Source: Medicago truncatula
Taxonomy: Eukaryota > Streptophyta > Magnoliopsida > Fabales > Fabaceae
Direction: 5' to 3'
Assembly: GCF_003473485.1 (NCBI RefSeq)
Contig: NC_053046.1
Span: 33,805,332 to 33,869,331 of the forward strand
DNA: 64,000 bases
The notes under the pieces are model-generated. The model had not been told where the DNA came from. It ran no database searches and saw nothing but the letters and a program-made list of their open reading frames with translations. Both the position numbers and the translations under genes were made by a program. Below, one piece after another: positions 1 through 60,216 of this stretch (the stretch's first letter is position 1; each line of letters starts with the position of its first letter).

Positions 1-267
1 ACCTAGAGAAGTTGGTAGTTTCTGACTTGTCCCTTATGCTTAGTTTATTAAATGCTGATTCAGATTCATCTAGTAGTTCAAACTCAAAGCATGCATCCTC
101 AATAACTTGATCCAATTTCTTGTCCTCATCAGCATTATGAAAACAGTTTCTCTGCTTAGCATCCATAACAACTTTTCTCCACACAGAGTTACTATTAATC
201 AAAGTTGTTGCATTTCCAACTATCCAAAGGCAATATCTGCAACAAATATAATCAGTTTAAATCAACA

Positions 268-311
<44 letters not shown>

Positions 312-3300: not shown

Positions 3301-5493
3301 CAAATTTGAGCACAATTCTCTCCGATACCAAGAATCGTGACGCAACCATGGCTGTGAACTATGATCTTAAGACCTGAAGGAAGGATGTATTTCACAAGGA
3401 TTGAAAATAAACACAAGCAGCATCTTATCTATTGAAGAAATATGTGCATGAAAGTTTCAAAACAAATTCTAATGCAGAAAAACTTTTCTCATAGTATTCA
3501 AGTTGATGTTTGTTAAATTTGTAAGTTGAAAAACATTAGTTTCATGAGTATAACAAAGAATAGAAACCAATAAATAATTTTGTGATTCTTACCCTTGAAT
3601 ATGGCTGCAACACTTTTTTAATTATATTCATGTTGGATTCTTCCATATCTGAGTTCAAAGCATTCCAAATACGAATATTTGTTGTCATGTTAATGAGATA
3701 AACAACGTAGAGTTTCTGGGCTTTGTTACTCCTCAAATCAATGTTGTTATGCATCTCCTTGGACAACAGCATAGTAATCTGATCATTAAGTTCATCTTTT
3801 GATCCACAAATATAACCTATGTGACAATATCTTTCGATCCTGCTCAAATCAGACACGCTTCTAGGTCGAACATTTGTGAATGCAACGAGGTCACCAACCT
3901 CAGGTTCATATTTTCCTACACCGTACACTTCTTCGGTAGTGTTCTTCAATGTAGTTTGATAGAACAAGGCGTGGGGATAGTTGAAGTCTTTGGATATTTC
4001 CATTGTCCTGATTTCGCAAAAAGCTTGAGGAACATTCCACAAGCTTGAAGACAGATAACTATGTGTTTCCTCAATCAATGCAGGAAAGAATGAATTCACG
4101 TAGTCATTTGTTGAGATGAACGTCTTTGGAATCTTTGGTACCTGCGCAAAATTAAAGAGCACTTCAATTCAAGATGCCTTTACTGAGACAAAGAGTTCTT
4201 TCTACAAATATGTTTGACATGTCACAACAGAAAATGAAGAGACTAGGCAAAAAAGCTAGTACAATTTAAGTACTTATTATATCTTATAAAGGGATCCTGT
4301 GTCGTCCAGCCAAATCTTATCCATTAGATTAATCTATCGATTGAGATGCGATTTTGTTGGCAACACAGAAGGGGTTATATTAGTAGGCAATCTAACTTAC
4401 AACAAATAAAAATGTGACTAGCATCTAATTCTTCCAATTATTTTCTTGATCCAATTTCCTCACAATAAAACAAAAACAAATGATAACAAGATCAAGAGCA
4501 AAAAAAAAGCAAAATCAGCAGTGTTTCTATTTTCTTTCAATTAATTAACAAAATCAGCAGTGTTTCTATTCACCTCAATTAACAAAATGAAACATCCTCA
4601 TCTCCACTACGCTTACTTTATTCTCGTGTTAGTTCTAAGCCGCCCAACACTCTATTCCATACAACATCGTCGGTCTAACAGCTGTCCGGTAGAATTTTCT
4701 CTTCAATTTGAAAGGTACTTTTGCATCACATAAAACACCTGAGGCACTTCTCCATTTCGTATTCAAGTTGGGTGTTTTATGTGATACGAAAGTACCGCTC
4801 TAGTTGAAGGGAAAATTATATTGGACAGTTGACATACCGGTGATGTTGTATGGAATGGAATGTTTGGCGGTTAAGAACCATCATTAGAATAAAGTACACG
4901 TAACGGAGATGATGATGTTGTGTTGGATGTGTGGTAAGACTAGACAGGATAGACTTAGAAATGACAACATTAGAGAGAGTTGGAGTAACACTTATAGTAG
5001 AAAAGATGGTGGAAAATAGGCTTAGGTGGTTTAGACTTGTAAAGAAAATACATGTAGATTCTGTAGTATGGAGAGTAGATCGGATGAAGGATAATCAGAT
5101 TACAAGAGGTAGAGGAAGACCTAAAAAACTATAAGAGAAACTATTAGAGCAGATTTAGAGATTAACAAGTTGGATTCAAATATGGTTTATGATAGAATAT
5201 TATGACGTAATTTGATCGATATAACCGATCCACTTAATGAGATAAAACTTGGATGTTATAATTAACATAATGAAAATGGAATAAAGTCAAGGCATCAAGA
5301 AGTTGAAGGATGAGTAACCCAAAAAAATTACAAGCTAATGTGTTTTGCATGTTAGAGTATTGAAAAGTGAAGAAAGAACCTGGTATTTGAAAAGATTTTC
5401 ATTGAGAATATCCTCTAGAGTCCAAGAGAATACAATATCTATTAAGCTTCCACGATGAAGACATTTCTCCATTGCAGTATATCTCATCTCCAT
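1..5493 (-). CDS. SF1 UPF1/SEN1-like helicase, type I, copy 1 (3' end off window)
   Basis: Predicted ATP-dependent RNA/DNA helicase of superfamily 1. Exons on the minus strand: 5493-5380, 4141-3593, 2956-1745, 1188-864, 611-356 and 236-3; a donor GT occupies positions 2-1, so the small last exon lies outside. All boundaries are GT-AG and phases agree, giving 896 codons so far. Exons 1-2 hold the plant N-terminal region ([13 protein letters not shown], then [13 protein letters not shown]). Walker A GPPGTGKT is near residue 279, motif Ia is [11 protein letters not shown], the DEAAQ box is near 587, and motif IV is [11 protein letters not shown]. Motifs V/VI are [10 protein letters not shown] and NVAITRAR. 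Motif III reads GDEIQLPA instead of GDERQLPA. Exon 3 lacks about 26 residues present in the copy at 29.6k. The ATG at 5493 follows a probable 5' UTR intron acceptor; a second in-frame ATG lies seven codons on. The target is unknown. Confidence 0.85.
275..307. repeat. (AT)n microsatellite in intron 5
   Basis: An uninterrupted AT dinucleotide run of about 33 bases inside the intron between exons 5 and 6 of the first helicase gene. The paralogue at 29.6k has no comparable run at this site. Confidence 0.9.
1326..1545. mobile_element. CACTA-like MITE remnant in intron 3
   Basis: The segment starts with ACTACAAAATATG and continues with repeated TTTAGTGGCCGA / TTTAGTGGTCGA motifs, a style typical of small non-autonomous CACTA elements in legumes. 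It sits between exons 3 and 4 of the first helicase gene and is missing from the paralogue at 29.6k. No clear right end or target duplication was found. Confidence 0.35.
4592..5235. mobile_element. Head-to-head LINE reverse-transcriptase fragments, in intron 1
   Basis: Two copies of the C-terminal part of a plant LINE reverse transcriptase lie in opposite orientation: minus strand at about 4592-4740 and plus strand at about 4770-5235, separated by about 30 bases. The plus copy encodes recognisable pieces, such as [11 protein letters not shown]-like and MVENRLRWF residues followed by GRGRPKK, which resemble the end of RTE-type plant LINE ORFs. Several stops and frameshifts break it. The pair lies in intron 1 of the first helicase gene, so that intron could form a hairpin of about 150 bp arms. 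Confidence 0.65.
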
Positions 5494-12545: not shown

Positions 12546-15480
12546 CTGGAGGAAGAAGTTGATGCTTCTGATTTTTCACCTAAACTTAGTTTCATAAATG
12601 GAGACTCAGATCCTTCAAGTAGTTTGATCTCGAACAAGACATCATTAATAGCCCGGGCCAAGTTCTTGTCCTCTACAGCATTATGGAAACAATCTCTTCT
12701 CTTAGCATCAAGAACTACATTTCGCCAAACCGAGTCACTGTTGATTAGAGTAGCTGCATTTCCTAATATCCAAAGGCAATATCTGCGCAAAATGAACTCA
12801 AGAGTTTTCAGTAAACATTAGAGAAGCAATGCAGCATAACAAAATAAAAATAGTATTTAACATACCTAGCCCTAGTCATAGCCACATTTGCTCTTTGTCT
12901 ATTTGAAAGAAAACCAACATTACCACTTCCATTTGATCTCACAGTAGATATTATTATAATATCTTCCTCACCGCCTTGGAAACCGTCAACAGAACGAACA
13001 TTAACAGAAAAGTCCGAAGTAGTATCCCAAGTGTATTGCTTAACTTTCTCCTGGATTTCATTAACTTGAGCATTATATGGAGATATTATTCCTATGCTTA
13101 CTTTCTTCTTTGTCCTCATGAACACTGGAAGAACAAAAAATTCCCCGTTACACCTATAAATGCATAATTCATACCGAGGCTAAAGATTTCTTATTCAACG
13201 AAATACAACATAAAATTTAAAATAGGAATTGACCTTTATTAAGGCTTTTAATCATCTCTGAAATAACAGCTACCTCAACCATGTTCTTCAGACTTTGTCC
13301 ACAATGTCCAAGTTTCTCTTTACCCTTAGCTATGTTAATAAAAGAATAAGAAGAATACATATCTCCTACAAGGAAAAGCTTGTTATAGCTTACTTCCTTG
13401 ACGGCAGGAGCATCTGATAGCTTTTCATCGTAGAACTCTTTGCATGGGAATAAGCTAATGGAAGGATGCATTCTATATTGAATATTTAGCATATGCCTCT
13501 TGTATCCTAAAATTACCAGCCTCTCAAACATACTTCGGCCAAATTCACATTTATCTGCAATCTACAAATATAACAGTTTCGAACATATTAGACCAAATCA
13601 TCAATTACAGAGAAAACCAACAATTAAATGCAATGATCAACTACCTTGCTTTTCACCAATGCAGGAAGTTGTCTCTCATCTCCGATCAGGATGCAATTGC
13701 GGAGACCAGACAGCTGTAATGGAATCGTTGATTCACATTCTTTTAGCTGTGCCGCTTCATCGATTACTAAAAATTGAATTGGGCTCACCTCGGCTGTGTA
13801 TAGTTTAACAGAACTTGATGCAGTACAGAAGATTAGGCAAGCATTTGACAAGCAAAAGTTTCCTACTTCAACTCTCATGTTATCTCTTTTGTCAAATTTA
13901 GGAAGGGATATTGTGTCAGAAAGCGAACTTAGTACTTTAAGGCACTCATCTCTTCTGACGTAGAATGCTTGAATGTATGCAGGAAAGCTTTCATCTTCAC
14001 AATTAAATTGATTTTTCTAGAATTTGGCCTGCCACAAAGAAATTCCAAGAGATCTTAGCAAATCAAGAGCTTGAAGCATTTTTTTCACTGTTTCAAGTGA
14101 AATGAAAGACTTTGGCATGTGGGTGTATAAGGTTTGCATCAACAGCTTGAGCTTCTCTCTTTGTTCAACAAATTTCTGCTTGTATATAAATGCAAATACT
14201 GCCCTATACTTTTTTCTCAAAGTAAATTTCTCCATGGACTTGAGCAGCCGTATCATGGATCGCAAGTTAGTTTCCCATCCAATATTTGAATCAAAGCACC
14301 GCTTGAGATTCTCTACACGGTTATCAAGAAAGATATCAACAAGGCCTGGATGAGAACTTAATTTCATTCTCTTACTATTTCCAAAGAGCACAATGTCACC
14401 TAGACCATATGTTTCAAGCTCAAGTGAATCCATAACCAACCTATGCAATCGAATTGCCACTTGCAAAACTGCAGTATTAGTAGGAGCACAAGTCAATGTT
14501 CTGGTTTTTAACTCGAGTAAAGAAAATAGCAAGCATGCAACTGTCTTCGTTTTCCCTGTCCCTGGAGGTCCCCATATAAGTTTGACATTAGAATGATTAC
14601 AATTTATCATATTAGCACTGCTCGAAACAGCATCTTCCTGGGATTCATTCAGTTTCTGAGAGCGAATTATCATGTCTTCTTTGGTGAATGAAGCTTGACA
14701 ATTTTCTTCGGAAAGGCAATTTTGACAGTTTTCACCACTCTGAAATACAAAGCAAGCATTAAACAGGTTAAATTTTACAGCACACAATGCACATGTATTT
14801 CACAGTAATTCGCGACCGTTGATTTATTGTGTATGTTAGCATTACACAGTATGCTACATAATAAATTAAGGAGAAATTCATTCATATCAAAAATTATTCT
14901 TACAATGAGATGCGGTCCCAACACTGTTTTAATTATGTTGAGGTGTTCACCCTCTGAGGGTGAATTCAGTGCATTCGAAATACGAAGATTTGTTGTCATG
15001 TTCATAAGGTAAACTGCATACAGTTTAGGCTCTTCTCTATTCCCAAAATCATGTTCAGTATCCGTCTTCAGGCATTTGGATGATAGAACTGAAACCATAT
15101 CTGAAAATCGTTTTTTGGGCCGATCAACATAACCTATATGGTAGGGACTTTTGAGTGTGTTCAAGTCATCTAAGCTTTTGGGTCTAATGTTTGTGAAAGC
15201 AATGAGATCTCCACTTCCAGGTTCATAATCTCCACCATCTTCCACACTGTAAAATGTACTCTTCAACTGTATCTTATGACGGAACTGTTTGAAATGCTTT
15301 TGAGCTTTGGGAAGTTGCAATTGCTTGCTTTTTATAACTTTCTTGATTTCACAAATGGGAGCTCGAGACACACCAGACAAGCTTGAAGATAAATCAGTGC
15401 GCGTTTCCTCACACAACAGAGGAATGAAAGAGTTCTTGTAATCTGTTGCTGACTTAAATGTCTCTGGTATCTTATGAACC

Positions 15481-18989: not shown

Positions 18990-21900
18990 TCAAAATTTCC
19001 CTCCTAAACGCCGTTTCTTCAATGGCGACTCAAATTCTTCAAGTTGTCGAAGCTGAGGCAAGACATCCTTAATAGCTTGGGACAATTTTTTGTCCTCTTC
19101 AACATTGTGGAAACAATCCCTTTTCTTAGCATCAATAACAACATTTCTCCATACAGAGCCACTGTTGATTAGAGTAGATGCATTTCCTAATATCCAAAGA
19201 CAGTATCTGCACAAAATGAACTCAGTTTTCAGTAAACATAGAAACAGCATAACAAATTGAACATTATATACATCATACCTAGCCCTAGTCAGAGCCACAT
19301 TTGTTCTTCGTCCATTAGATCTCACAGTAGATATTATTATAATGTCTTCCTCACCACCTTGAAAACCATCAACAGAACGAACATTTACAGAGAACTTAGA
19401 ATTAGCAACCTTAGTGTACTGCTCAATTTCCTCCTGAATTTCATAAACTTGAGCATTATATGGAGATACGATTCCTATGCTAACTTTCTTCCTTGTCTTC
19501 ATGAACACTGGCAGAACAAAACAAAATACATTGTAAGACATAAATGCATAATTCTTACGGAGACCGAAGATTTCTTTTGCATGAAAAAGTTAAAAATAAA
19601 AAAGCTTAAAAGAAAAGAGAAATTGACCTTCATAAAGGCTTTTAATTATCTCAGAAATAACAGCAACCTCAACCATGTTCTTCAGACTTTGTCCATGTCC
19701 AAATTGCTCTTTACCCTTGGCTATGTTAATAAAAGAATAAGAAGAATACATTTCTCCTTCAAGGAAAAGCTTATTATAGCTTTCTTCCCCGACAACGGGA
19801 GCATCACATAGCTTTCCATCATAGAACTCTTTGCATGGGAACAAGCTAATGGAAGGATGCATTCTATACTGAACATTTAGCATTTTCCTTTCGTATCCCA
19901 GCATTACAAGCCTTTCAAACATACTTCGTCCAAACTCACACTGATCAGCAATCTACAAATATAATTGTTTTGAACATATTAGAGAAAATATTCAATTGAA
20001 GAGAAAAAATCAATAACTAAATCCAATGGTCCAATGGTCAAGTACCTTGCTTTTTACTAATGCAGGAAGTTGTCTCTCATCTCCAATTAGGATGCAGCGG
20101 CGGAGACCGTGCAGCTGTAATGGAATTGCTAATTCACATTCTTTTAGCTGTGCGGCTTCATCGACTACCAAAAATTGCACTGGTTTCAACCATGATGCAT
20201 GAATTAGTTTAATTGAGCTTGATACAGTGCACAAAACTAGACAAGCATACGACAAGCAAAATTTTTCCACTTGAACTCTCTTGATCCCACCTCTCCTGTC
20301 AGTTTCAAAATAAGGAAGGGAAACTGTTTTAGAAAGCGAACTTAGTATGCTAAGGCACTCATCTCTTTTGACGTATAGCAGTTGAAAGTAAGCAGGAATG
20401 CTTTCATCTCTTTTCTTAAATTTGGCTTGCCCGATGGAAATTCCAAGAGACTTTAGCAAATCAAAAGCCTGAAGCATTTTTTTCACCATTTCCAGTGAAA
20501 TGAGAGATGTTGGCATGTGTGTGTATAAAGTTTGCATCAAGAACTCGAGCTTCTCTTTTTGTTGAACAAATTTTTGCTTGTATTCAAATACTTCACTACT
20601 CTCTTTTTTGTTAGCAGATTTCTCCATGGACTTGAGCAACTGTATCATTGATAGCAAGTTAGTCTTCCATCCGGTATTTGGATCAAAGCATTCCATGAGA
20701 TTCTCTACATGGTAATCAAGAAAGAATTTGACAAGGCCTTGATGAGAACTAAAATTCATCCTCTTGCCATTGCCAAATAGCACAATGTCACCCAAACTAT
20801 ATGTATCATGCTCAAGTGAATCCATAACTAACCTATTCAACCGACTTGCCACCTGCAAAATTGCAGTATTAGTTGGAGCACAAGTCAATGTTCTGGTTTG
20901 TAACTTGAGTAGAGAAAATAACAAGCATGCAACTGTCTTAGTTTTCCCTGTCCCTGGTGGTCCCCATATAAGTTTGATATCAGCATGATTGCAATTCATC
21001 ATACTAACACAGCTTGAAACAGCGTCTTCTTGAGATTCATTTAGATTCTGAGAACGGATTATCACATCTTCTTGGATGAGAGAAGATTGACTATCTGGTT
21101 CAGGCGGGCAAAGTTGACAGTTTTCTCCACTCTGAAATACAAAAAGCGTTAAACAGGTTACATATTTAACTGCAAAAGTATTTTAAAGGACATAACGACA
21201 TGTATTTCAAAGTAATTTCCCATGCGGGAAAAATAAACATCATTGATTTATTGTGTATGTCAGTATACCACAGTATGCTATATATACTAAATGAAGGAGA
21301 AACTTATTCAGATCAAAAGATTACTCTTACAATTGGACGTGGTCCCAACATTGTTTTAATTATGTTCATATGTGAGATTGATTTCAGGGCTTTGCAAATA
21401 CGAACATTTGTTGTCATGTTCATAAGGTAAACTGCATACAGTTTCAACTCTCTGTTGTTCCACAAGTCATCTTCAATATCCATATTCATGCATTTGGATG
21501 ATCGCTCCTTGTTGTTCTGCAAGTCATCTTTGATATCCATCTTCATGCATTTGCATGACAGTACTGAGATTCTATCAGGAATCCCATTCCCTGCCTTGAT
21601 TGCCTTCTTAACATAGGCGATACGGTAGGGGCTTTGGAGTGTGTTCAAGTCATTTAAGCTTTTAGGCCTAATGTGTGTGAAAGCAATGAGATCCCCTGAC
21701 ACAGGTTTATAATTTCCAACGTCTTCAACTTCATCAGATTCAGTTGTACTCTTTAGCCGTATGTCATGATGGAACTGTATGAATTGATTTTGATCTTTTG
21801 GAATGGAAAGTTTCCATTGTGCAGTTTTTTGGACATTATTGATCTCACAAAAAGGAGCTTGAGAGACAGCAAACAAGCTTGAAGATAAATCAGTGTGTGT

Positions 21901-22586
21901 TTCCTCAAACAATAGAGGTACAAAAGAGTTCTTGTATTCTGTGGCAGACTTAAACGTCTCTGGAATCTTATGAACCTGAGAGAACGTAGGTTTTTTCTAG
22001 TGTTATTAGAACATGTAATAGTTGCATAATTAAATAGCAGAGATAAAAATGATCAACAGAACAATTTTCATTTCATGGTAATACAGACAATTTTTTTGTT
22101 CATAAAAAAAAATACATCTATTTTTATCCAAGTAACAAAATGGTTGCACTCATTACCATAGCCACAAAGCAACATAGTTTTTATAAAAGATAATGTAATT
22201 AATTGGAACGAACCTGTAATTCTTATTCATTTTCTTCAATAGTTAAAATTTACTCATTTTGTTCACTGCGATATACTCCATATGTGAGGGTGAGACTACA
22301 TAGAAGGAAAACTATTTTCTTTATGTTTGAAAAGAGCATAAAAATACTCAATCTTTATTTAGATTGGGTATGGTTCAAATCCTTTTCCAAGAAGCAAGTG
22401 CACTTTGTAAAGAATCTAAAGATGGAAAGAAACCTTGTCTTTGTAAAGATTTTCGTTCAAAACATCCTCGTAGGTCCATGAGAGTACAACATCCTCGAGT
22501 CGAACAACCTCTACATTTGCATCGCTAACATCCTTTTCACTTGCATTGCTAACATCCTCTTCACTTTCATTACTAGTTGTCTCCAT
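18990..22586 (-). CDS. SF1 UPF1/SEN1-like helicase, type II, divergent copy
   Basis: Six exons on the minus strand: 22586-22434, 21975-21331, 21131-20046, 19952-19628, 19507-19279, 19206-18990; GT-AG and in phase, predicting 884 residues. Walker A is near residue 323, the DEAAQ box near 590, GDERQLPA near 616, then [18 protein letters not shown] and NVALTRAR. Oddities: exon 1 is 13 codons longer than in paralogues, through an acidic repeat ([16 protein letters not shown]); exon 2 carries a 57-bp tandem duplication; exon 5 lacks ten residues just before motif VI (the VGFLSNRQ segment of other copies); exon 6 ends at its own TGA, and the usual donor is GCGAGT, so the RWW-type tail exon seems lost. 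The lobe-1 inserted module is absent. Probably still translated; catalytic competence is uncertain. Confidence 0.8.
21449..21558 (-). repeat. 57-bp in-frame tandem duplication in exon 2
   Basis: Two adjacent copies, 21506-21558 and 21449-21501, encode [16 protein letters not shown] and [16 protein letters not shown]. The period is 57 bases (19 residues), so the frame is kept. Other helicase copies in the window have only one such segment. Confidence 0.85.
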
Positions 22587-29604: not shown

Positions 29605-32600
29605 ATGGAGAAGAGATGCAGTAATAAAATGGAGGAATGTCTTCACCGTGCAAGCTTAATAAGTGTTGTATTCTCTTGGACTCTAGATGATCTTCTCAAC
29701 GAAACTCTTTTCAAATACCAGGTTATTTTTTTACTTTTCATTACTCTTAACATATATGAAAAACCACAATAGACCTTTAAGATATAATAGTTTAGAATTT
29801 TTTAATCACTCACCATCAATTTTTAACACCTTATCAACTTTATTCTCCTTTTCATTTAATTATTTCAAAAATATTTTTATAAGCTTATTTCCTTTTGTTC
29901 TTTATATTGATATCATTTTTTTCTTTCCATTTGAGGAAAATAAATTAAGAAATTACCTAGCAGAACTATGGTAGTGTAATTTATATTGTTTGAATGTTGA
30001 TTAGTTTGCCGTCTCTTCAAATTCTCTGATGTAATTTGAACTGTTGGATTAATCTAAGAGGAGTACTAGAAACACTCCATTTTCAAAGGTCACTTACGCG
30101 GGTCTCATAATTTTATGTGGGACCCATTTTCAAAGTGTGAGACCTACATTAAGAAAAAAGTGAGCGTCGTAATGAATGTTGGTCTAAGAGTGTTCTTAAC
30201 ACTCCTGGTCCTTAATAGGTCAAATTTGGTTAGAGGTTTGAAAAAGATCCAATTTCAATTATAAGTCTCTTTTCTTTCTCTAGTTTTTTTATGTCATTTC
30301 ATCTTTCTGTTTTGAAATGGTAAGCTTATTTCTAGTGATCAAATTTCATCAAAACAGAACAACGAAGTATTGAACCGTCTATAATCCTAGCTTGAAGGAA
30401 GACAACAAAACTTTCAATGTCTCCGTTAAGGTAGCTTGAAATGTTTCTCAATTTTTTGGTAGGTACCGAAGATTCCGAAGACATTCTTGTCAACAAATGA
30501 TTACACGAATTCATTCTTTCCTGCATTGATTGAGGAAACACATAGTGATCTATATTCAAGCTTGATGAGTGTGCCTAAAGCTTCTTTTTGTGAAATCAGA
30601 ACAATGGAAATATCGAAGGTCTTCAATCCTCCGTACGACTTGTTCTATAAAATTACATTGAAGAACATTACTGATGAAGTCTACGGAGTAGGAAAGTATG
30701 AACCTGAGGTTGGTGATCTCATTGCATTCACAAATATTCGACCAAGAAGTGTGGATGACTTGAGTCGGATCAAAAGATACTGTCATATAGCTTATATTCA
30801 TGGATCAAAAGATGAATTTACTGATGAGATTCCTATACTGTTGTCATATGAGTTTGACTTGAAGAGGAACAAAGCACAGAAACTCTATGCAGTTTGTCTC
30901 ATTAACATGACTACTAATGTTCGTATTTGGAAAGCCTTGAACTCAGAGATGGAGGGATCGGACATGAATATAATTCAAAAAGTGTTGCAGCCTTATTCAA
31001 GGGTAAGAATCACAATTTGTTATTCATCCTAGACTTCTGTGACCTTTCTTTACATCTTTATATAATCAAAGCTCTAAATCGCATTTTCATGGTATTGCAG
31101 AGAATCATGATCAAATTCAGCTGACGTGGCCCCAATTGCAATTTTGCTATAAAGTGATAACAAATTTAATACCATAGATTTAGATTGCATTCGTTAGCCT
31201 CAATGTTTATGTTATTTTTGCGACTGCTATTGTTGCTGTTTCAACCATATTTTTTTGCAATCGCAACGCTACTACAACCTCTATTTAATACCTTGCTTAA
31301 CAAGATTACTTATTGTTCTATTATATTGTTACTACTCTATTTAAATTGTCATAAAAAGTTTCATGTTTACATTATATTTTACAGATGGAACAAAACTGTC
31401 AGACTTGCTTGTCAGGAGTAAATCTCGGTCGATCCAATTCCCGAGTCAAAACTATAATCAAAGCTCAAAATCTAAACGAGTCTCAGAAAGATGCTATTCT
31501 AAGTTGTCTTCATATGAAGAAGTGTCATCACAATGATCCTATTAAACTCATATGGGGTCCACCAGGAACTGGCAAAACAAAAACAGTTGCATCCATGCTA
31601 TTTTGTCTCCTCAAGTTAAGAATCAGAACACTAACATGTGCTCCAACAAACACTGCAGTGTTGGCAGTGGTGTCGCGCCTTCACAGCATAGCTAAGGATT
31701 CACTTGAGCATGGTTCATATGGTCTTGGTGACATACTACTATTTGGAAATAGTAAGAGAATGAAAATAGAATCTTATAAGGGTCTTGGTGAAGTGTTTTT
31801 GGATAATAGAGTTGATGATTTGTTGTACTGTTTTTCTCCAATGACAGGATGGAAAAATTGTTTAGAATCAATGATAAGTTTACTAAAGGATCCTGAAGAG
31901 CAATACGCTTTGTATTTAAACAGTAAACATAATGAAAATGTTATGTCATTGGAAGAATTTGCCGTTGGAAATTATAGTCATGTAAAACCTGCATATTTAT
32001 CATACAAGAAACGTTGCAAGTATCATTGTCTTTTGACATTGGAGGAGTTTGTGAAGAAGAAATATGGTTACATTGTAGAGCAATATGATATATACCAAGA
32101 TGATAAAAAGGTAAGTGTTGGTATGAGTATGGAACAGTTTTTCAAACAAAAATTCTGTTGCTTTGGAGGGAAGTTGAAGTCATTAATGAAAACTTTGTGT
32201 ACTCACTTGCCAACAAGTTTCGTTTCACTTAAGGTGGCGATGAAAATTTTCAGAGTTCTTGAGTTGCTAAAATCTCTTGAAGTTTCATTGAGTCAAAGCA
32301 AACAAAAACAATCTTTAAATGATCATTTTGGAGTTGGACAGAGAATTTTTTCTTGGTTTGGATGGTTAAGCTTCGAAAAAGAAGAATTCCTTCATACCCT
32401 TTGTTTTCTTTGTGAGACTATCAAGCTTCCTAAACTTACATCAAAATATGGCATATCACAATTTTGCTTGAAAAATGCATGCCTTCTTTTTTGTACTGCA
32501 TCAAGTTCTTCAAAATTGTACACGGAAGGAATGAAACGAGTGGAGTTTTTAGTGATTGATGAAGCTGCTCAGCTTAAAGAATGTGAATCAGCTATTCCTC

Positions 32601-34415
32601 TGCAATTACATGGCCTCAAACGTTGTATTCTCATTGGTGATGAAAGACAACTTCCTGCAATGGTCAAAAGCAAGGTACTTAGAGAATTATTTTCTGCTTA
32701 ATTTTACTTGAAAATCAGTAGTTCTACTTCTTTTCAAGTTGTGAAATTTTTATTATGGCTTATGATTATAATGTTTTTGTGTCAGATTGCTGACAGGGCT
32801 GAATTTGGAAGAAGCTTATTTGAAAGACTAGTACTGTTGGGATACAAGAAGCATATGCTTGATGTTCAATATAGAATGCATCCATCCATAAGCATGTTTC
32901 CAAGTAAAGAGTTCTATGATGGTCAACTTTCTGATGCCAATATTGTAAGAGAAATAAGCTATAACAAACGTTTCCTTGAAGGAAAAATGTATGGTTCCTA
33001 CTCTTTCATTAACATATCTAAGGGTAAAGAGCAGTGTAATCATGATCATAGTTTGAAGAATGTGATTGAAGCTGCTGCTATCTCTGAGATTATTGGAAGA
33101 CTTAAAAAGGGTTGCTTTCTCTTCCTCCTTTTCTTCACTCAATTAGTTTGTTAATCTGTTTTTTAGCAATATAATATACTATGTTTGGATCGACACATTT
33201 GAGCTTATTTACTGAAATAAACACTTATAATCACTTATACACATAAGCTCTCCATGATAACTTATGAAAACAGTTAATAGCTTCTGTGAAAATAAATAGT
33301 TTGACATTATTTTAACTTTTTCTATAGAAATAGCTTAGACATAAAGACATATGATAGGTTTTTATGCCGCTTAATTAAGCTCTTTATCCAAACAGGGTCA
33401 TAATATTACGATACACATTATATAATCTTTTATTTTTCTATCGGAGTTTATTTTCCTGCCAGAGTTTGTTCTCATAAGCTATCTTGGAGAGCTTATGAAA
33501 ATAATCTGAAAATAGATTGTAGACATGTCATAAGCTGTTTATACGGTCTCTCCCAATTAGTCTCATGATATGATAAATAATATACCATACATTATATTAA
33601 TCTTTTATTTATGTGGCAGAGTTTGTAAGGGCAAGGAATAAAGTCAGCATAGGAATCATATCTCCTTACAAGGCACAAGTTCATGAAATCCAAGAGAAAG
33701 TGAAGCAGTACATGGTTTCGGATCCTAACTTTTCTGTTAGTGTTCGTTCTGTTGATGGTTTTCAAGGTGGCGAAGAAGACATCATAATCATATCTACTGT
33801 TAGATCAAATCTGAGTGGAAAAGTTGGTTTTCTTTCCAATAGACAAAGAGCAAATGTTGCAATCACTAGGGCTAGGTATGTTGTACATATATGCACATTT
33901 TAAGGAAGAAAAAAAAAGGTTAAATTTGAAGTGCAAAAACATCTGTATGAAATGCTGACATATATAAACATGTTGGTTTAAAATTTATTTATTACTTTTT
34001 GCAGATATTGCCTTTGGATTGTAGGAAATGCTACAACCTTAGTTAATAGTAATTCTGTGTGGAGAAAGGTTGTTGTTGATGCCAAGGAAAGAGATTGTTT
34101 CCATAATACTGATGAGGACAAGAAATTGGATCAAGTTATTGAGGATGCATGCTTTGAATTTGAACTACTAGATGAATCTGCATCAGCATTTAATAAACTA
34201 AGCATAAGGGACATGTCAGAAACATCTACTTTCTCTAGGTAAGAAGCCGTCACATCTTTTCATATATTCATGTTAATTGTATAATGCTGAACGTGTAAAT
34301 CAGCATTTTGATACTACAAACTGTAAACTCTGAGCAATTTAGTCTCTCAAATTTACAAACTAATATTTGCATGATTGTATTTCATAGGAAACCATTGAAA
34401 TTGTGGCGACGATGA
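29605..34415 (+). CDS. SF1 UPF1/SEN1-like helicase, type I, intact copy
   Basis: Seven exons: 29605-29721, 30463-31002, 31385-32674, 32786-33110, 33620-33875, 34005-34238, 34388-34415. All splice sites are GT-AG and in phase, predicting 929 residues. Exons 1-2 form the N-terminal region ([41 protein letters not shown]). Exon 3 holds Walker A GPPGTGKT near residue 277, [11 protein letters not shown], one copy of an inserted lobe-1 module rich in MSLEEF/LTLEEF/MSMEQF repeats, the DEAAQ box near 611 and GDERQLPA near 637. Later exons give [20 protein letters not shown] and NVAITRAR, and the tail ends KPLKLWRR. This is the most complete type I copy here. The family includes UPF1 and SEN1 RNA helicases; the substrate of this plant subgroup is unknown to me. 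There is no transit peptide or membrane segment. Confidence 0.9.
33179..33402. mobile_element. MITE in intron 4 of helicase
   Basis: TATGTTTGGATCGAC at the left is mirrored by TTATCCAAACAGGG at the right, with AGCTTATTT / GCTTAATTAAGC-like internal motifs. It sits in the intron between exons 4 and 5 of the 29.6k helicase; the paralogous intron at 612-863 does not contain it. Confidence 0.45.
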
Positions 34416-37776: not shown

Positions 37777-38132
37777 CTAATCCGCCATGATACGGACAAC
37801 GAGGTCAATAGTTGAATTATCTTGGATGTTGTAGTTGGCAAGGGTGTGGCGGTTGGAACATAGCGCCTCATTGTCAAAGAACAAGTCATATCCGTGCACT
37901 GGGATCCCTTCCTTGTCCTGAATCTTCTTCTTCACGTCAAGTATCGTGTCTGAACTCTTAACCATCAGAGGGAACCTCTTGTTTTCAAACATGATGTCTA
38001 TGAATATTTGCATCTGCACCGCAAGAATACAAAATCCCTTGCAAAATTTATTATCATACTACTAATTCATATACCATACACATATAAAAGAAATTCTACA
38101 ACACTTACAGAAACGGAGCTGCTGCTATTCAT
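37777..38132 (-). CDS. Ubiquitin-like protein without C-terminal GG, copy 1
   Basis: Two exons: 38132-38109 (MNSSSSVS) and 38013-37777, joined by a 95-base intron (GTAAGT donor, GGTGCAG acceptor). The predicted protein has 86 residues. After the eight-residue leader it follows ubiquitin: MQIF start, SSDTI, IQDKEGIP, TLANYNIQ. It ends VVRIMAD instead of RLRGG, so the di-glycine needed for conjugation is missing. Lysines matching ubiquitin K27, K29 and K33 are kept; those matching K48 and K63 are not. One extra residue lies before position 16 of ubiquitin. The first exon and 5' leader (CGGCGGTGA, then GTAGTAAG before the ATG) are conserved in the second copy, which supports the start. It may act as a free or decoy ubiquitin fold; its role is unknown. 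Confidence 0.75.
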
Positions 38133-41277: not shown

Positions 41278-41713
41278 CTAATCCGCCATGATACGGACAA
41301 CGAGGTCAATAGTTGACTTGTCTTGTATGTTGTAACTGGCAAGGGTCCGGTGGTAATCTAGTGGCGCATTAGAAAAGTAAAGTTCTTGATCATGCACAGG
41401 GATCTTTTCATTGTCATGAATCTTCTCTTGAACGCTGAGTATCGTGTCCGAACTCTTAACCATCAGGGGGAATGACTTCATTCCATACTCGATGTTTATG
41501 AATATTTGCATCTGCACCGCAATTGTCAACACATTAAATTATTAATCAATCACAAAATAAAACAAAATCATACAATTAGCTAGAATAAAATTAAACAAGA
41601 GATTACACATATAAACGAAAATCGAATCATGTATGCAATAAGAAATTGATACAAACACATATAAAACATATACAAAATTTAATGACACTCACAGGAACGG
41701 AGCTGCTATTCAT
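41278..41713 (-). CDS. Ubiquitin-like protein without C-terminal GG, copy 2
   Basis: Two exons: 41713-41693 (MNSSSVP) and 41511-41278, with a 181-base intron (GTGAGT donor, GGTGCAG acceptor); 84 residues. It is a duplicate of the gene at 38.1k: same leader, same intron position, same VVRIMAD end. It has diverged further from ubiquitin: the K27 equivalent is Q, the K33 equivalent is N, and K48 is lost; K29 is kept. The patch around ubiquitin I44 reads ELYF. Without the di-glycine it should not be conjugated. Upstream and downstream flanks match the first copy, so a whole-gene duplication of about 3.5 kb spacing is the simplest origin. Confidence 0.75.
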
Positions 41714-44179: not shown

Positions 44180-44492
44180 TAACATTTTGGCTTAATTGCA
44201 TTTTTGGACCCCTATCTTTTTAAAAGTTGCGGTTATGGCCCCCTAACTAATTTAAATACAAAACAGCCCCTTATGTTTTGATTCTTTGGCAGTTTTGGAC
44301 TCCCAGTCCATTAGTGAGGTGCCACGTGGCCCCCTAAATAATACACGTAGCACCTCACTAATGGACTGGGGGTCCAAAACTGCCAAATAATCAAAACATA
44401 AGGGACTGTTTTGTATTTAAATTAGTTAGGAGGCCATAACCGCAACTTTTGGAAAGATATGGGTCCAAAAGTGCAATTAAGCCTAACATTTT
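44180..44492. mobile_element. Mutator-like foldback MITE with 9-bp TSD
   Basis: The element spans 44189-44483 and is flanked by perfect 9-base direct repeats TAACATTTT (44180-44188 and 44484-44492). Its arms of about 140 bases are near-perfect inverted repeats (GGCTTAATTGCA start, TGCAATTAAGCC end). A 9-base target duplication with long inverted repeats is the hallmark of Mutator-like elements. The high arm similarity suggests recent insertion. Confidence 0.85.
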
Positions 44493-45765: not shown

Positions 45766-48254
45766 CTAGGGGAGGCGGAGGATGAGGTGGAGGGTTGCCT
45801 TCTCTTGGATGTTGTAATAGGCAAGGGTATGGCTGTCATCTAGTAGCTTATTGGCAAACATCAGACGTTGTTGGTGCACTGGGATCGTTTCCTTGTCAAG
45901 AATCTTATCCTTCACATTTGCTATCGTGTCTGAACTCTCCACCTTCAAGGGGGTCATCTTTCCACAACCATGTGCTATGAATATTTGCATCTGCACCGCA
46001 GTCGCCAACAAATAAATCAATAATGAAACCACCAGAAATAAAACAAAAACACCTTGGACCCTTCATTACAACACAACATGGTAAACAAATTTCATGATCA
46101 AATGAATAAAAGAAAATTTAATTTTGATATTTCCAGAACTGATCCAAAATTGAAAAACGGAAAACACTAACAATCCTTTTTGGCATTTGAAAAACTGATG
46201 AATTTGAGATAAAATGCTAGAGTATATATTCGAAACATAAAAGAATTTTGTAAGACTATAATTGGAAAAACAACGAAAGTAATGAAGAGGAGAAGAGGTA
46301 CCTTGGGGGTTATGCAAATTTCTAGCTCGAGTGGTTTAGAAGAACCAAAATAACCAAATGGAATCATGAGATACTCTGATGAATGAGTTGCTGAAGTAGA
46401 CCGTTGGATATTCTTCGGAGAAGAATGGAACTTCAGACGGGATGTCTTAGACCTAGCCAATATATCATAACTATAACCGGCTTCAGAAGAGTTGACATCA
46501 ATGCAGCTAATATTGACTGCATTTCCCAGAAGCATAGTACTATTATTGAGAGTAAATAGTTTCCCATCATTTTCCTCTTGAAGAACAGCAGCTTCATCAT
46601 TAGAATTCAACGAGACAGTGAAGGAGTGACCATAAGAAAATTCGATTAGAGAGTCCCCGTGTTTATGGTTGAAATGGTTGGACAACACTTCTAATGAGGC
46701 AACAAAATCACAACCTTTAACGGGACAGTAACATGGCACATAGATGCATTCTTCTTCATGTTTCCTCTTTCCACTTTGACTTATTGTCTCCCTGCAGCCA
46801 TATTTTTTGTTCGGGCATGGCATTTGGATAGATTGCGATATATTCTCAATGACTTTGCAACATTTTGAGCTAATGGGCATTGAGCACTTGTGACAGTTGT
46901 TCATAAGTTGAGGAAAGCAAGTAGAGCAAACAATATGATCATTATCGCACTGAATTGCAACATAAAAGATAGTCATCAAATTAGACTTTGAACCATTAGG
47001 TAGAATAAAATAAAGTAAGAGATTTCTTTGCAAGGCTTGTTAGCATGTCGTGCAATCAAAAGTATAACCAACACAAAACTAATCATTCTCAAATTTTTCT
47101 TCTTAAAGTCTATTTCGAAGTTTAGGGAAGCCATACAAGAAGTTCATACTGTACACATAAAAGTTCAAAAATTGAAGGTTATACAAAACTAAAGACATTC
47201 ATAATTAATATTCAAACCCAATGTAAAGTAAATAAGTATTGGCCTCCATGGCTTACTCATCTGAGCATTTAAAATAAACAAAATTGATTCCTTAAACATA
47301 ATCCAACCACTTATTCATCATCACCATCATCATGCTCATTCTCTTCACTACTAGTCCTCACTAGTGATACAATTTCTCCTTTTGTATGCCTATAAGGACA
47401 AGTTGGTTCCCCTCCCCATTCTTTTCTGCTGTCTACATAGGCACATAAGACAATGAGGGTGAACAATGTAGTTTTTTGGTCGAATTAGACTCTTCTAAAG
47501 TCAATAAAGGATAAAGTGAGAAAATCAAGTGACTTATATTTTAACAAATTTGTGGTTGTTATAATGTATCTCTGATATCCATCCTTAGTTTTTCTTGGGT
47601 TAATTAAGCAAATGGTCTCTATTAAATATCCCAAACTTTGTTTTGTTCATACAAAAAAAATCATAACTTTTTAGTCCTCTGACATTCTTTTAAACATTTT
47701 TAAAGGACTGTGCTCGTGAGCTGTCCTCGTGAGCTTAGCTCAATTGATATTGACAATGCATAAAATATGTAAGGTCTGGGGTTCAAATCCCGGCCACCAC
47801 CAAATTATATGATTTTCTCAAATTATTAATGATAGTGATGTCGGCATGTACATGTCCGTGTTGTGTCTGGCATGTGTGTATTTGTACTTCAGTGGTAGGG
47901 ACTAAAAAAGAAATTATGAATATTTATATGGATCATTTACGTAACTAACGGATCTTTTTTAATGATCAATCATATTGACCATTCAATATTTTAGGGTGAA
48001 ATAACAAAAAAGGCCAAAAAAAAAAAAAGAAATAACCATAAATTGAGGGTATATTCGGATTTTCATATTCCCAGGTGTGGGAGTGGGAAATATGAAACGC
48101 ATACCTGAAAGACCGGAATACTTGACGATGGTTGAAGACAAATGCAGCACTCGAAATCTTTTGGGAAGGAAATCATCACTTTGACGGAACTATTCTTATT
48201 AACACCTTCTGCGGAATCAACGATCTCTTCGTTTTCTTTGTTGCATGTCTCCAT
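45766..48254 (-). CDS. SINA-type RING E3 ligase fused to a ubiquitin-like domain
   Basis: Three in-phase exons: 48254-48105, 46949-46302, 45990-45766; 340 residues predicted. A C3HC4 RING (C36, C39, C51, H55, C58, C61, C69, C72) spans the first intron. It is followed by the SIAH zinc fingers (CPNKKYGC, then HEEEC, CPVKGC and a paired H) and the start of a SINA-like substrate-binding region. Exon 3 adds a ubiquitin-like domain: MQIF, VESSDTI, QQRL, YNIQ, with K11, K27, K29, K33 and K48 kept and K63 replaced by E. It stops at RLP, so there is no di-glycine. SINA proteins pass ubiquitin from an E2 to bound substrates. The fused domain could aid E2 or proteasome contact (inference). Without the last splice, the frame would read on to a stop at 46167; the matching acceptor in two neighbouring ubiquitin genes favours splicing. 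Confidence 0.7.
46950..48104 (-). other. Intron 1 of SINA gene (1155 bases)
   Basis: Interrupts the RING finger between the second and third metal ligand pairs. It contains a SINE copy (47723-47802) and a poly-A stretch near 48018. A CATCATCACCATCATCATGC run near 47320 is low-complexity only. Confidence 0.55.
47723..47802 (+). mobile_element. tRNA-derived SINE, in SINA intron 1
   Basis: GTCCTCGTGAGCTTAGCTCA at the start and GGGGTTCAAATCCCGGCCAC near the end match the copies at 38597 and 53943 (A and B box positions). It is inserted opposite to the host gene. No clear target duplication was seen. Confidence 0.65.
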
Positions 48255-54560: not shown

Positions 54561-57500
54561 ATGGAGAAGACTAGAAATGGAAGTGAAGAGAATCTTAAAC
54601 TCGGGAGTCTTATAGATATTGTACTCTCTTGGACCCTCGAGGATGCTCTCAATGAAAATCTTTACAAAGACAAGGTTTCTTTTACACCCTTTACAACACT
54701 CGCAATGAAAAAGTGTACTTGGTTTTTGAAAAATAATTTGAACATGAAAGAATACAAAATCTTACAAAGAACTCGTGTCAAAATCTCGATAATGATTGAT
54801 TATTTATATAGATTTTCTCCACTTCATTGTTAGATTTTCACCCTTTTTAGTAGTTGCAAAGATGTTATGTTGTTTAAGAGTTGCAAATAATTGTGTTGCA
54901 ATAAGAAAGTCGCTGTATATAGTCCCCTCATGTTTGCTCAAAAGCTCCTTAAATGTATCAGAATGTATCTACCGATCACACAAACATATCAGGAAATACG
55001 TTCAAATCGTTTTTTATTCCCCATCGAAAGCTATATTCCGATCGATCTTTTTTCAGGCTATAGCAACTTGGGCGCCATATAGAGCAACCTTCTTAATAAT
55101 TTCAAGGAATTTTTTGTATGTGTTCAATATAGGCCCAGAAAACATATCTAAACTTTTTATTTTCTATTGAGTGCAACCATCTTATAACATTTGAATGATT
55201 AGAGCAGCACTATTAAGTTGAAGTATATTGTGAAAATTGTTTTCTCTCAGGTTCATAAGATTCCAGAGACATTTAAGTCAGCAACAGATTACAAGAACTC
55301 TTTTATTCCTCTATTGTTTGAGGAAACACGCGCTGATTTATCTTCAAGCTTGTCTGGTGTGTCTCAAGCTGCTCTTTGTGAAATCAAGAATGTCGAACAC
55401 AGCAAGCAGTTGAAACTTCGCAAAGCTCAAAATCAATTCATTCAGTTCCATCATACCATATGGTTGAAGAGTACAACTGATTATGAACCTGCGTCAGGAG
55501 ATCTTATTGCTATTACATACATCAGGCCAAAAAGCTTAAATGACTTGAACACACTTAACAGTCCCTACCATATTGCCTATCTTAATGGGGGTAAAAATAG
55601 ATTTTCTGATAGAATCACAGTTCTATCTTCCAAATGCATGAAGATGGATGTTGACACTCTATCCAGGAAAAACAATACACAGAAAATGTATGTTGTATAC
55701 ATTATGAACATGACAACAAATGTTCGTATTTGGAAAGCCTTGCACTCAAAGTCAAAAGGTGACCACCTCAACATTATTGAAAAAGTTTTGCAACCTAATC
55801 TCAATGTAAGAATTACTACATCACTTTCTTTGATGAGTTTCACCTTTATTTATGTCATACTGTACAATTTCTCAGAGCATACTTTTATGGAATGTAAAAG
55901 TACTTTGAAATGCACTAACTGCGCTGTTTTATGCAAATGATACTTTTTTCAATGATTATGCAGTATGGAACTTTAAATACTACATGTATTATTCAATTTT
56001 CTCCTTTGGCAGCTAAATATGAATGTAACTTGTATAATTTTTGTATTTCAGAGTGGAGAGAACTGCAAAATTTGCATGTCTGGATCAAATAGTCAAGCCT
56101 CTTTCATTACGAAAGACATAATTCGATCTCAGAATCTGAATGAATCCCAACAAGATGCGGTTACAAGCTGTGTTCGTATGGTAGATTGCTCTCATGCTAA
56201 TACCAAACTGATATGGGGACCACCAGGGACAGGAAAAACAAAGACTGTTGCATGCTTGCTTTTTTCTCTACTCAAGTTGAAATCAAGAACATTGACCTGT
56301 GCTCCAACTAATACTGCAATTTTGCAGGTGGCAATTCGTTTGCATAGTTTAGTTACAGATTCACTTGACCATGATACATATGGTTTAGGTGACATTGTGC
56401 TATTTGGCAATGGGAAAAGAATGAAAGTGGATAGTTATCCAGGTCTTGAAGATATCTTTCTTGATTATCGCGTGAAAAATCTCATGCAGTGCTATGCTGA
56501 ATGGAACCATAGTTTGGTAGCAATTATCGAATTTCTTAGTGATCCTAGCAAACAATATTTCTTGGAGATGTCCAAAAAGGATTTTGTTATGGATAAAAAT
56601 AGGATTTTAGCATCTGCATATCATGCATACAAGATAAATAAGGGGAACCATGGTCTAATTATGAGGTTTGAGAATTATGTTCAGAAGGCTCGGACAGAAA
56701 TCACTAAGCTATACCAATTGGATGAGAATGACAAAAAGGAATGTATGTTGACAATTGAGCGATTTGTGAAACAGAGAATTGATAAACTAAGAATGAATAG
56801 AGTCAATTTCTTCATGACCGTATTTACAAGCTTAATGCAGCTGTTTGAGGACCCTAGAGAGCAAATTTTCTCAAAGATGGGTTACAAGTCCCTTGATGAT
56901 TTTGCTACAAATAGTATTGTAGTATCTGCATATAGTGCATACAAGCAAAATATAAGGTATGATAAATATGATGATTCTTTGACTTTTGAGGGATATGTGA
57001 AGAGAGCAAGGAAAGATATTATAGAGCTATACCAAAGTATCATGACCATGGAGCAATTTGTGAAGCAGAGATATTTAGAATTAAGAGAGAAGCTAAAGTT
57101 CTTGCTACTTACCTTATACATCCACATGCCAAAATCTTTCATTTCAGTGAACAATATTCTCCAAGCTCTTGACTCGTTAAAATCACTGGAAATTTCCTTG
57201 AGTCAAGCCAAATTTAAGCAAGCTGTTGATGATTGTGAAGAAGAAAGCATTCCTGCTTGCTTTGGACCATCAAGTTTGGAAAGAAAGGATTGCCTTCACA
57301 TACTAAGTTTCCTTTCCAAGTCAATTTCGCTTCCTGATTTTAAAGTGAGACATCAAGTGGAAAAGTTTTGCTTGTCAAATGCTAGTCTAATTTTGTGTAC
57401 TGTATCAAGCTCTATCAAACTTTACTCAGAAGAGAAGAGTCCGGTGAAATTTTTAGTTATTGATGAAGCAGCTATGCTAAAAGAATGCGAGTCAACCATT

Positions 57501-60216
57501 CCATTGCAGCTTCCTGGTCTCTGTCATTGTATCCTAATAGGTGATGAGAGGCAACTTCCTGCATTGGTAAAAAGCAAGGTATTTGATCATTGCTGTTTTT
57601 GTTATTGTTTAAACTGTAGATATTTTTCCTTAATTTAAGATTGTTGTCTAATATATGTTCAAAATTAAAGGAACATTGTACGTTAGCTGAAACACACGAA
57701 GATTGTACGAAACACTCATTATTGAATCAAATTTGATAATAAGTGAGTGTTTAGACATGAAAATTATGAAATCTGCCTCTAAGTTAAGTGGCAAAAAAAT
57801 TCATTATGAAGATTGGTTTTCTTAAACACTTTTGCTCATAATATTCGGTAACATAACACTTAGAGAAAGAAGAGCGGATTACTACACAAGCTACAACAAT
57901 AAACTCTACCTCACCAAGTTTACTTGAGTCACAAGCTATCTAGTCTTAATTAGTTTGATCTAGTGTATTAGCATGTGATTAGGTTCTATGTACTTTACAT
58001 TTTGTCTATAAATACACATTGTACTCCCTTTTTCATCTATGAGAAATGAGACTACTTTCTATCTTTTACTTTCCATAACAACACTTTCTAGTTTATTTAA
58101 AACTAAAAACATGTCACTATTTGTGCATTTTGTGCGACACAATTTTTGTAAACCATTGTATCTCAAAGAATTTATATTTATAGATTGCAGACGAGTGTGA
58201 ATTTGGACGAAGTATGTTCGAGAGGCTAGTTACTTCAGGCTACAAGAGGCATATGCTTAATGTTCAGTATAGAATGCATCCATCAATTAGCTTATTTCCA
58301 TGCAAAGAGTTTTATGATGGAAAAATTTCTGATGCCGTCATTGTTGGGAAAGAAAAATATAATAAGCATTTCCTTGAAGGAAAAATGTATGCTTCTTATT
58401 CTTTTATTAACATAGCCAAGGGAAAAGAACAATTTGGTCGCGAAAACAGTTTGAAGAACATGGTTGAGGTAGCTGTTATTTCCAAGATACTTGAAAGCCT
58501 AAAACATGGTTTGTTTCTCTATCTTGTACTATGTGGATGTATTATATCTAATGCATTAACTCCAATTAAAAAGAAATATTTAGATTAAATATGCATTATG
58601 CTTTCATACTTGTGACCCTTTTTTGTGTACAGAATTTATGAGGACAAAGAAGAAAGTGAGCATAGGCATCATATCTCCATATAATGCTCAAGTTTTTGAA
58701 ATTCAAGAGAAAGTTAAGCAGTACATTGCGGTTTCTGATACCGACTTCTCTGTTAGTGTCCGGTCTGTTGATGGTTTTCAAGGCGGCGAGGAAGATATAA
58801 TAATAATATCAACTGTAAGATCAAATGAGAGTGGAAAAGTGGGGTTTCTTTCCAATAGACAAAGAGTTAATGTGGCAATCACTAGGGCTAGGTATGTTAT
58901 AACTATATAATATTTTCCTTTTTTACTGAAAACACAATAATATCTACTAGGAAAATGTTTACCGAAAACTGAATACATTTTTTGTGCAGATATTGCCTTT
59001 GGATATTAGGAAATGCAGCTACTCTAATCAACAGTGACTCGGTTTGGAGAAATGTAGTTCTTGATGCTAAGAGAAGAGATTGTTTCCATAATGCTGCAGA
59101 GAACAAGAAATTGGCCCGGGCTATTAATGATGTCTTGTTCGAGATCAAACTACTTGATGGATCTGAGTCGCCATTTAAGAAACTCAGTTTAGGTGGAAAA
59201 TCAGAAAAACCAACTACTTCCTCCAGCTCTAGGTGAGTGGAAATAATTCATTCTTTAATATATCTATTGTGGTTTTGAATTATTTGTTCTTGTTGTGATC
59301 ATATTTGTTGTTTATCTTTATCTTTTTTTCTTATAAGCAAAATATATTAATCAGTTTGAAGAGAAGCCAAAGAATTAGAATACCAGAAGGAATAATTATA
59401 TTAATATCTAGATCACAACTTTAAGTATGGTGCATACGAAAAAATTAAGCGAGAAACATATTCTAAATCTTGAAAACAAAACTACTAGGACTGGCTTGGT
59501 GGTATAGGTTTGCGACTTAGGAGTGTCCTCATCTCTGTTCCAGTTTGAATCCTTCAACGTATCAATAATTTATGTGTTGGGTCCGTCCATATGACCTTGG
59601 GCCCAATACCAAGTTTACAAATTTATTTTATTGAAATTTAAGTTTTACAATAATGTTCATCCAGTTTATTAATCCAATTCCAGGTAATAGTTATATGAAC
59701 ATGAACTCCCTTGCACATTTTCCTAAGTTTAAATAAAGTAACCAAAATCAAATCTTAGCTCAATTTAAATAAACACAGTCCATATTTTTAAATTTTACAT
59801 TAAGCTATAATTTCATAGTACTATGAGTATCAATACTCAGCAGCAAAATGAAAAATAAATTACTTTGGTTCGCCACAATTCGCAACATCTGTCTACTTGC
59901 TTGTAACGGATATGATATTTAATTGATATGCACCGACAGTATACAAATATTTTACACCGTTGTCAAATCACACATACAATTGGTTGCCAGTGTATTTTAG
60001 ACTCAGACATTGCGTAGAAATTTAAAGTCGAAATAGGGTTTTATTATTGGTCGATAATAATTGATAAAGTGAATCTTATCGATCTATAACATATATTTTT
60101 ATGACTGATTTAGTGACTAACATGAACATGCAATAGCATTGTCTATAATCATGTGGAATTAATACTTGTATGATTTGTTGTGTTTTGGTTGCAGGGCACC
60201 TAAACAAAGGTGGTGA
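54561..60216 (+). CDS. SF1 UPF1/SEN1-like helicase, type II, with duplicated lobe-1 module
   Basis: Seven exons: 54561-54674, 55251-55805, 56052-57578, 58184-58508, 58633-58891, 58990-59232, 60195-60216; all GT-AG and in phase, 1014 residues. Walker A GPPGTGKT is near residue 279, [11 protein letters not shown] follows, GDERQLPA is near 720, then [20 protein letters not shown] and NVAITRAR; the tail ends APKQRWW. The motif II region reads DEAAML (near 694), with M in place of the Q found in every other copy here. Exon 3 is the longest of the cluster, because the inserted module of roughly 100 residues (SAYxAYK, then FExYVxxAR, TxEQFVKQR) is present twice. The ATG at 54561 follows a TTTAG acceptor six bases upstream, implying a 5' UTR intron. 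Appears intact; substrate unknown. Confidence 0.88.
56500..57080 (+). repeat. Two in-frame copies of the lobe-1 inserted module
   Basis: Copy one covers about 56517-56775 ([43 protein letters not shown]). Copy two covers about 56815-57070 ([43 protein letters not shown]). They align in order without gaps of note. Type I genes have one related module; the other two type II genes have none. Confidence 0.8.
59233..60194 (+). other. Last intron of the 54.6k helicase
   Basis: A 962-base intron before the 22-nt last exon. It includes a possible SINE relic at about 59490-59560 (GACTGGCTTGGTGGTATAGG, then CCAGTTTGAATCC). No independent gene. Confidence 0.45.

Follow-up and report, generated by a model that had tools for sequence, protein, structure and literature searches.

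A gene in Medicago truncatula is predicted to encode a SINA-like RING E3 ubiquitin ligase whose C terminus is a diverged ubiquitin that could not be conjugated. In our judgement, it is fairly likely that this gene is one of a family of about 15, that the ubiquitin-like (UBL) domain came from polyubiquitin, and that it serves the ligase as a docking or regulatory module. The gene lies in a 64,000-nucleotide stretch of the genome (C5:33,805,332-33,869,331; "the window"). Positions below are those of the window, unless a contig is given.

The gene is on the minus strand and has three phase-0 exons (48254-48105, 46949-46302, and 45990-45766), which join into a frame of 340 amino acids with no internal stop. 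The order of domains in the predicted protein is RING, SIAH zinc finger, and a UBL domain that ends in RLP. Exon 1 (48105..48254) encodes 50 amino acids, with the start codon, an N-terminal tail, and the first half of the RING (CCIC). Exon 2 (46302..46949) encodes 216 amino acids and supplies the second half of the RING, the SIAH-type zinc finger, and a SINA-like C-terminal region. The SINA exon is separated from the UBL exon by intron 2 (45991..46301), which is 311 bp, is in phase 0, and runs from GTACCT to GTGCAG. Exon 3 (45766..45990) encodes the 74 amino acids of the UBL (45990-45769) and a TAG stop codon (45768-45766). The donors are CAG/GT and AAG/GT, and the acceptors are CAG. The first donor is in phase 0 and reads CAG/GTATGC. 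The second, GTACCT, lacks a G at +5, which is a weakness that the earlier note on this DNA did not mention. Since 14 of the 15 copies that we describe below lack this G, splicing of the SINA-UBL genes may be inefficient.

Based on its RING ligands and its zinc finger, the encoded protein is a SINA/SIAH-type RING E3, with predicted ligase activity. All eight C3HC4 ligands of the RING are present in the window protein, and the six that are encoded by exon 2 are invariant across 15 aligned exons (including the more distant L058, described below, and excluding L045). For the joined protein, Pfam's Sina_RING model gives 23.6 bits, which is below its cut-off of 29.3, and the zinc finger model Sina_ZnF (PF21361) gives 48.4 bits (cut-off 32). 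All 15 exon-2 sequences match PF21361 at E ≤ 1 (best E = 1.5e-12). Zinc-finger positions C52, H64, C68, C75, C80, and H92 are invariant in the same 15 aligned exons, while C45 is missing in L041 and H97 is missing in L050 (one copy each). By sequence, the nearest solved structure is SIAH1 (9g0l; E = 2e-10). The matches of the SINA exon to PDB stop near position 110 of the 211 positions of the profile, and none of the 15 exon-2 sequences matches a TRAF domain or a Sina C-terminal domain from Pfam at E ≤ 1. An AlphaFold model of exon 2 from the single sequence was useless (pLDDT 32.9).

The UBL domain of the window protein shares 47 of 73 residues with ubiquitin (E = 5e-25), and the protein scores 72 bits against PF00240 (cut-off 25.4). 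One of five AlphaFold models of the UBL was confident (pLDDT 84.6, versus 40-44 for the other four), and this one model superposes on ubiquitin with a TM score of 0.93 (to 6qml_B). Both the Pfam match and the model match indicate the beta-grasp fold of ubiquitin. As the earlier note had said, the UBL ends in RLP and has no di-glycine: Gly75 and Gly76 are absent and the stop follows directly, so this UBL is not expected to be conjugable.

To find other members of the family, we searched the genome (430 Mb in 42 contigs) with exon 2. We found 31 matches and analysed the 21 separate SINA-like loci with E < 1e-50. Of the other ten matches, which we left out, one was a fragment at the L028 locus and nine were weak (27-32% identity); reading by eye, we saw no UBL within 20 kb of any of these nine, among the matches listed. 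At 15 of the 21 loci, the SINA exon is uninterrupted (62-100% identity), and every one of these 15 copies has a UBL exon on the same strand, 88-1,114 bp downstream, that can be joined in frame and in phase 0. The GTA donor and the CAG acceptor of intron 2 are present in all 15. So the claim of the earlier note that the SINA-type gene stays in frame across a splice into a ubiquitin exon is true of the window gene and of its paralogs. The UBL frame is open in 14 of the 15 copies (it is frameshifted in L045), and none of these 14 intact UBLs has Gly76. In full-length matches, the UBLs of the family are 53-72% identical to ubiquitin. A homologous exon 1 is present in 14 of the 15 copies (that of L048 was read by eye). 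We looked for exon 1 of L050 and did not find it, and exon 1 has no in-frame ATG in L046 and L047, so the family may include dead copies. Intron 2 of L042 is unusually long (1,114 bp, versus 88-318 bp in the other 14 copies), which suggests an insertion.

Five of the remaining loci have damaged SINA exons: the exon is truncated in L053 and L054, interrupted by stops in L055 and L056, and frameshifted in L057. The UBLs of L053, L054, and L057 are broken, and we found no UBL in 7 kb at L055 or L056. Thus, the UBL is damaged or unrecognised at all five loci with a damaged SINA exon, versus 14 of 15 intact UBLs where the SINA exon is uninterrupted (Fisher test, P = 0.0004, or 0.005 if near-identical pairs are counted once). 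The last locus, L058, has a SINA-like exon with 43% identity that ends at its own stop, and its 8-kb region has no match to the UBL. Two pairs of broken SINA genes are close together, L053/L054 at C5:33.95-33.97 Mb and L055/L056 at C4:29.63-29.65 Mb. Within each pair the breaks are identical, which suggests recent duplication of genes that were already broken.

We infer that the roughly 15 SINA-UBL genes arose, most simply, from one founding fusion followed by duplication of whole genes.

The SINA-UBL joint appears to be maintained. Across 13 copies (the alignment omits L042 and L045), intron 2 has a mean pairwise identity of about 80%, which is similar to that of the fourfold sites of exon 2 (0.798). 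Despite drift of the intron at about the rate of fourfold sites, its GT and AG do not vary in the 15 copies (the acceptor of L045 was read directly from its sequence region). The UBL frame also remains open more often than expected by chance. In 2,000 neutral simulations on the UBL tree, 4.0 of 14 tips were free of stops on average and never more than 11 of 14, while all 14 were observed to be open; the 14 are the intact ones picked out of 15, which softens this excess and does not explain it. With the frame and the splice sites conserved in all 15 copies, the RING and the UBL may be spliced together in vivo and translated as one chain.

We used codon models to examine selection on the two parts of the protein (again without L045, because of its frameshifted UBL, which was also left out of the alignment A2). 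For the UBL as a whole, w is 0.90 and is not different from 1 (P = 0.4); a simpler model gave a likelihood ratio (LRT) of 3.7. This average hides strong differences between sites: M1a is better than a single ratio by 38 log units, and M2a is better than M1a with an LRT of 43.9 on the combined tree or 37.2 on the UBL's own tree, although gene conversion among tandem copies could inflate this signal. When M1a was simulated 60 times on the combined tree, the LRT never rose above 15.9. Because the 95% point of the simulated LRTs is 11.3, P values from the chi-square distribution are too small here, and the simulations should be relied on instead. The diversifying sites correspond to ubiquitin positions 6, 7, 9, 12, 24, 35, 54, and 74 (position 74 on the combined tree only). 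In contrast, eight residues of ubiquitin (I3, I23, K27, I30, Q41, L43, L50, and R72) are identical in all 14 UBLs. Also, I44 is kept in 11 of the 14, L8 in 8, and V70 in 5. In the UBL, the core of ubiquitin is fixed while the surface diversifies. In exon 2, w is 0.63 (P = 4e-7), and M2a gave LRTs of 20.2 and 22.6 in two runs (the simulations covered the UBL).

The sequence just behind the UBL points to the source of the domain. In 11 of the 15 copies, this sequence resembles ubiquitin from codon 50 on, and does so better than any of 300 shuffles. The resemblance is weak in L041 and L042 (reached by 12 and 4 of the 300 shuffles), and by the same test there is no second piece of ubiquitin in the window copy or in L044. 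Where the second piece is present, the stop of the UBL overlaps its out-of-frame codons. Because of this second piece, polyubiquitin is the probable source of the UBL. Plant polyubiquitin genes have a leader intron that ends at the first ATG, and in all four of the distinct polyubiquitin loci that we read, an AG directly precedes this ATG. On the other hand, the 3' end of intron 2 is no closer to the leader introns of polyubiquitin genes than the ends of intron 1 are (mean score 15.2 versus 16.3).

A SINA-like gene might have taken over the splice acceptor directly in front of a polyubiquitin ATG, so that its SINA exon was joined, in phase 0, to the first codon of what had been a ubiquitin unit. 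Most copies would then have undergone a deletion between ubiquitin units that shifted the frame, removed Gly76, and created the stop. The window copy and L044 would have ended differently: the RLP end of the window copy may have arisen in another way, or the trace may have been lost. This single founding fusion would then have spread through the genome by duplication of whole genes. The SINA-UBL genes resemble polyubiquitin genes and ubiquitin-ribosomal fusion genes in having an acceptor-like AG that abuts the ubiquitin ATG, and most of them retain the second piece behind the stop. Unlike those genes, they lack Gly76 and have the ubiquitin last, so we do not expect a deubiquitinase to release the UBL. 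An acceptor that ends exactly at the first codon suggests a simple route by which other genes could capture ubiquitin.

The window contains two other UBL genes, also on the minus strand, neither of which has a SINA exon. Neighbour A has a short predicted first exon that encodes the seven residues MNSSSVP (41693..41713), and its UBL exon (41278..41511) encodes 77 amino acids that end in MAD, without GG, and a stop. Neighbour B is similar, with a predicted first exon of eight residues (MNSSSSVS; 38109..38132) and a UBL exon of 78 amino acids that also ends in MAD, without GG, before its stop (37777..38013). In both genes, the two exons join in frame. As was claimed before, the three UBL exons in the window share an acceptor context, with GCGGTGCAG immediately before ATGCAAATATTC at 45990, 41511, and 38013.

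The similarity of the neighbours to the SINA-UBL genes is not confined to the UBL. The first-exon region of neighbour B aligns to the SINA exon 1 of L048 (68% identity over 81 columns; E = 4e-5). The introns of both neighbours have short, AT-rich matches to both introns of the SINA genes, with E = 4e-4 to 0.008 for intron 1 and best E values of 2.5e-7 and 9e-7 for intron 2. In the UBL tree, both neighbours group with the fusion gene L052 and with L060a (support 90), and then with L061a (support 100); the window UBL groups instead with L044 (support 90). (The tree omits L063, which is only 30% identical to ubiquitin, the broken L060b and L061b, and the UBLs of L045, L053, L054, and L057.) Given these matches and this grouping, the neighbours are best read as siblings of the fusion genes that lost their SINA exon, rather than as genes from which an exon hopped. 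At least two other UBL genes without an intact SINA exon carry SINA relics: exon 2 of L059 persists, with a large gap inside it, and L061 has a clear match to intron 1 (E = 2e-12) as well as a scrap of exon 2, which we identified by eye. So the UBL genes without SINA appear to be derived. In L060a and L062, we found no relic of intron 1 or exon 2 upstream of the UBL.

We also noted other repeated features in the window. An inverted repeat at 44186-44486, between the SINA-UBL gene and neighbour A, has arms of 143 nt that are 93% complementary and 15 nt apart, and is MITE-like or hairpin-like. Five groups of open reading frames that look alike by eye (262-4168, 12808-15479, 18990-21996, 30463-33903, and 55203-58910) surround the SINA-UBL genes, in both orientations. 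We scanned six of these reading frames with Pfam and found AAA_11 in four, AAA_12 in one, and DUF6469 in one. Presumably these are SEN1/UPF1-like helicase genes, or pieces of them.

The earlier note suggested that the UBL exon is "a mobile or duplicated unit." The second half of this suggestion agrees with our results, as whole genes seem to have been duplicated. An exon that hops between genes would account for the shared acceptor and exon start in the three window genes, and for the UBLs of L060a and L062 with no relic upstream, but we consider it very improbable. The neighbours resemble the SINA-UBL genes in introns 1 and 2 as well, and neighbour B also in exon 1; scraps of exon 2 are kept in L059 and L061; and the UBL tree places the neighbours with a fusion gene. 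The UBL and SINA trees agree on L041 with L042, on L049 with L051, and on the L040-L043 set, and differ elsewhere (for instance, the SINA tree joins L050 and L052 with support of 93). Nor did we find an unrelated host gene for the UBL exon, and the regions upstream of L060a and L062 have no match either way. So we rejected the mobile exon. A different possibility is that the UBL exon is a gene separate from the SINA gene, with its own promoter in intron 2 and translation from its own ATG. The window copy and 12 of the 14 intact copies do have a UBL that begins with ATG, and there are UBL genes without SINA, each with its own short predicted first exon. But the ATG has changed to ATA in L042 and to TTG in L050 while both frames remain open (starts at ATA or TTG are conceivable), and if the transcript is not spliced, the SINA frame enters intron tails that begin alike and stop at varying places. 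Together with the phase-0 donor and joint in all 15 copies and the SINA relics in at least two of the SINA-less genes, this led us to reject two genes as the main reading, which we view as improbable.

It is similarly improbable, in our view, that the family consists largely of decaying duplicates whose proteins have no function. The five damaged SINA exons, the frameshifted UBL of L045, the missing ATGs in L046 and L047, and the high average w are what decay would produce; against it are the number of stop-free frames, which is far above the neutral expectation, the strong heterogeneity of selection across sites, and the invariance of six RING and six zinc-finger positions in exon 2, with just two more zinc-finger positions lost in one copy each.

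If the fused protein is made, as we favor, then the UBL may recruit ubiquitin-binding partners to the ligase or tune its activity, by analogy to parkin and UHRF1. As a fixed module that cannot be transferred, it could bring in proteasome or shuttle receptors or the backside of an E2; alternatively, it could act in cis to control the ligase, like the UBLs of other E3s. Because the surface of the UBL diversifies, its partner probably varies between copies or is an antagonist. A possible but doubtful alternative is that the UBL is a built-in first ubiquitin, on whose lysines the ligase extends chains in cis, leading to its own rapid turnover. The end of the UBL is not conjugable, and K48 is kept in 11 of the 14 UBLs, K11 and K29 in 12 each, and K27 in all 14. 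However, K63 is kept in just 2 and K6 in 4, and the conservation of K27 may be structural, as this lysine is buried in ubiquitin. We also speculate, with about as little confidence, that the dead ubiquitin is a fast-diversifying recognition surface of a legume E3 family, such as a bait or decoy for proteins of pathogens or symbionts that attack the ubiquitin system, with the RING/SIAH part as the attached output. The copies without SINA would then be free-standing UBL baits.

The SINA-UBL proteins share the RING and the SIAH zinc finger, in the same order, with the SINA-like RING E3 ligases of plants; in this genome, L058 has a SINA-like exon that ends at its own stop. The SINA-UBL proteins differ in carrying a UBL, predicted to be joined by splicing behind their SINA-like C-terminal region. 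The earlier note considered it unusual for a single chain to hold both an E3 RING and a ubiquitin fold. This is fair for ligases of the SIAH type, but UBL-bearing E3s as such are already known, including parkin, UHRF1, and HOIL-1L. These also combine an E3 with a non-conjugable ubiquitin fold in one chain, as predicted for the SINA-UBL proteins. However, their UBLs are N-terminal, while the UBL of the SINA-UBL proteins is C-terminal, is attached to a SIAH scaffold, and in full-length matches is 53-72% identical to ubiquitin itself.

We found no description of a SINA-UBL protein in the titles and the beginnings of abstracts of the open-access papers that our searches listed; subscription papers, preprints, and protein databases were outside the scope of this search, and these proteins may already be annotated. 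Nor do passages of PMC6118397 and PMC9424811 report one. Searches of open-access full text for SINA or SINA-like together with legumes or Medicago truncatula and with a ubiquitin domain or tandem duplication also returned nothing. Our survey of the family covers one species, Medicago truncatula.

Ubiquitin is among the most conserved of proteins, yet here a copy that is tied to an E3 has become free to diversify, with its core retained. The fast-changing surface hints at a new regulatory part or a part in an arms race. If these genes are expressed, then they provide a natural series of about 14 different non-conjugable ubiquitins attached to one ligase scaffold, which could be used to test how a built-in ubiquitin fold affects a RING ligase.
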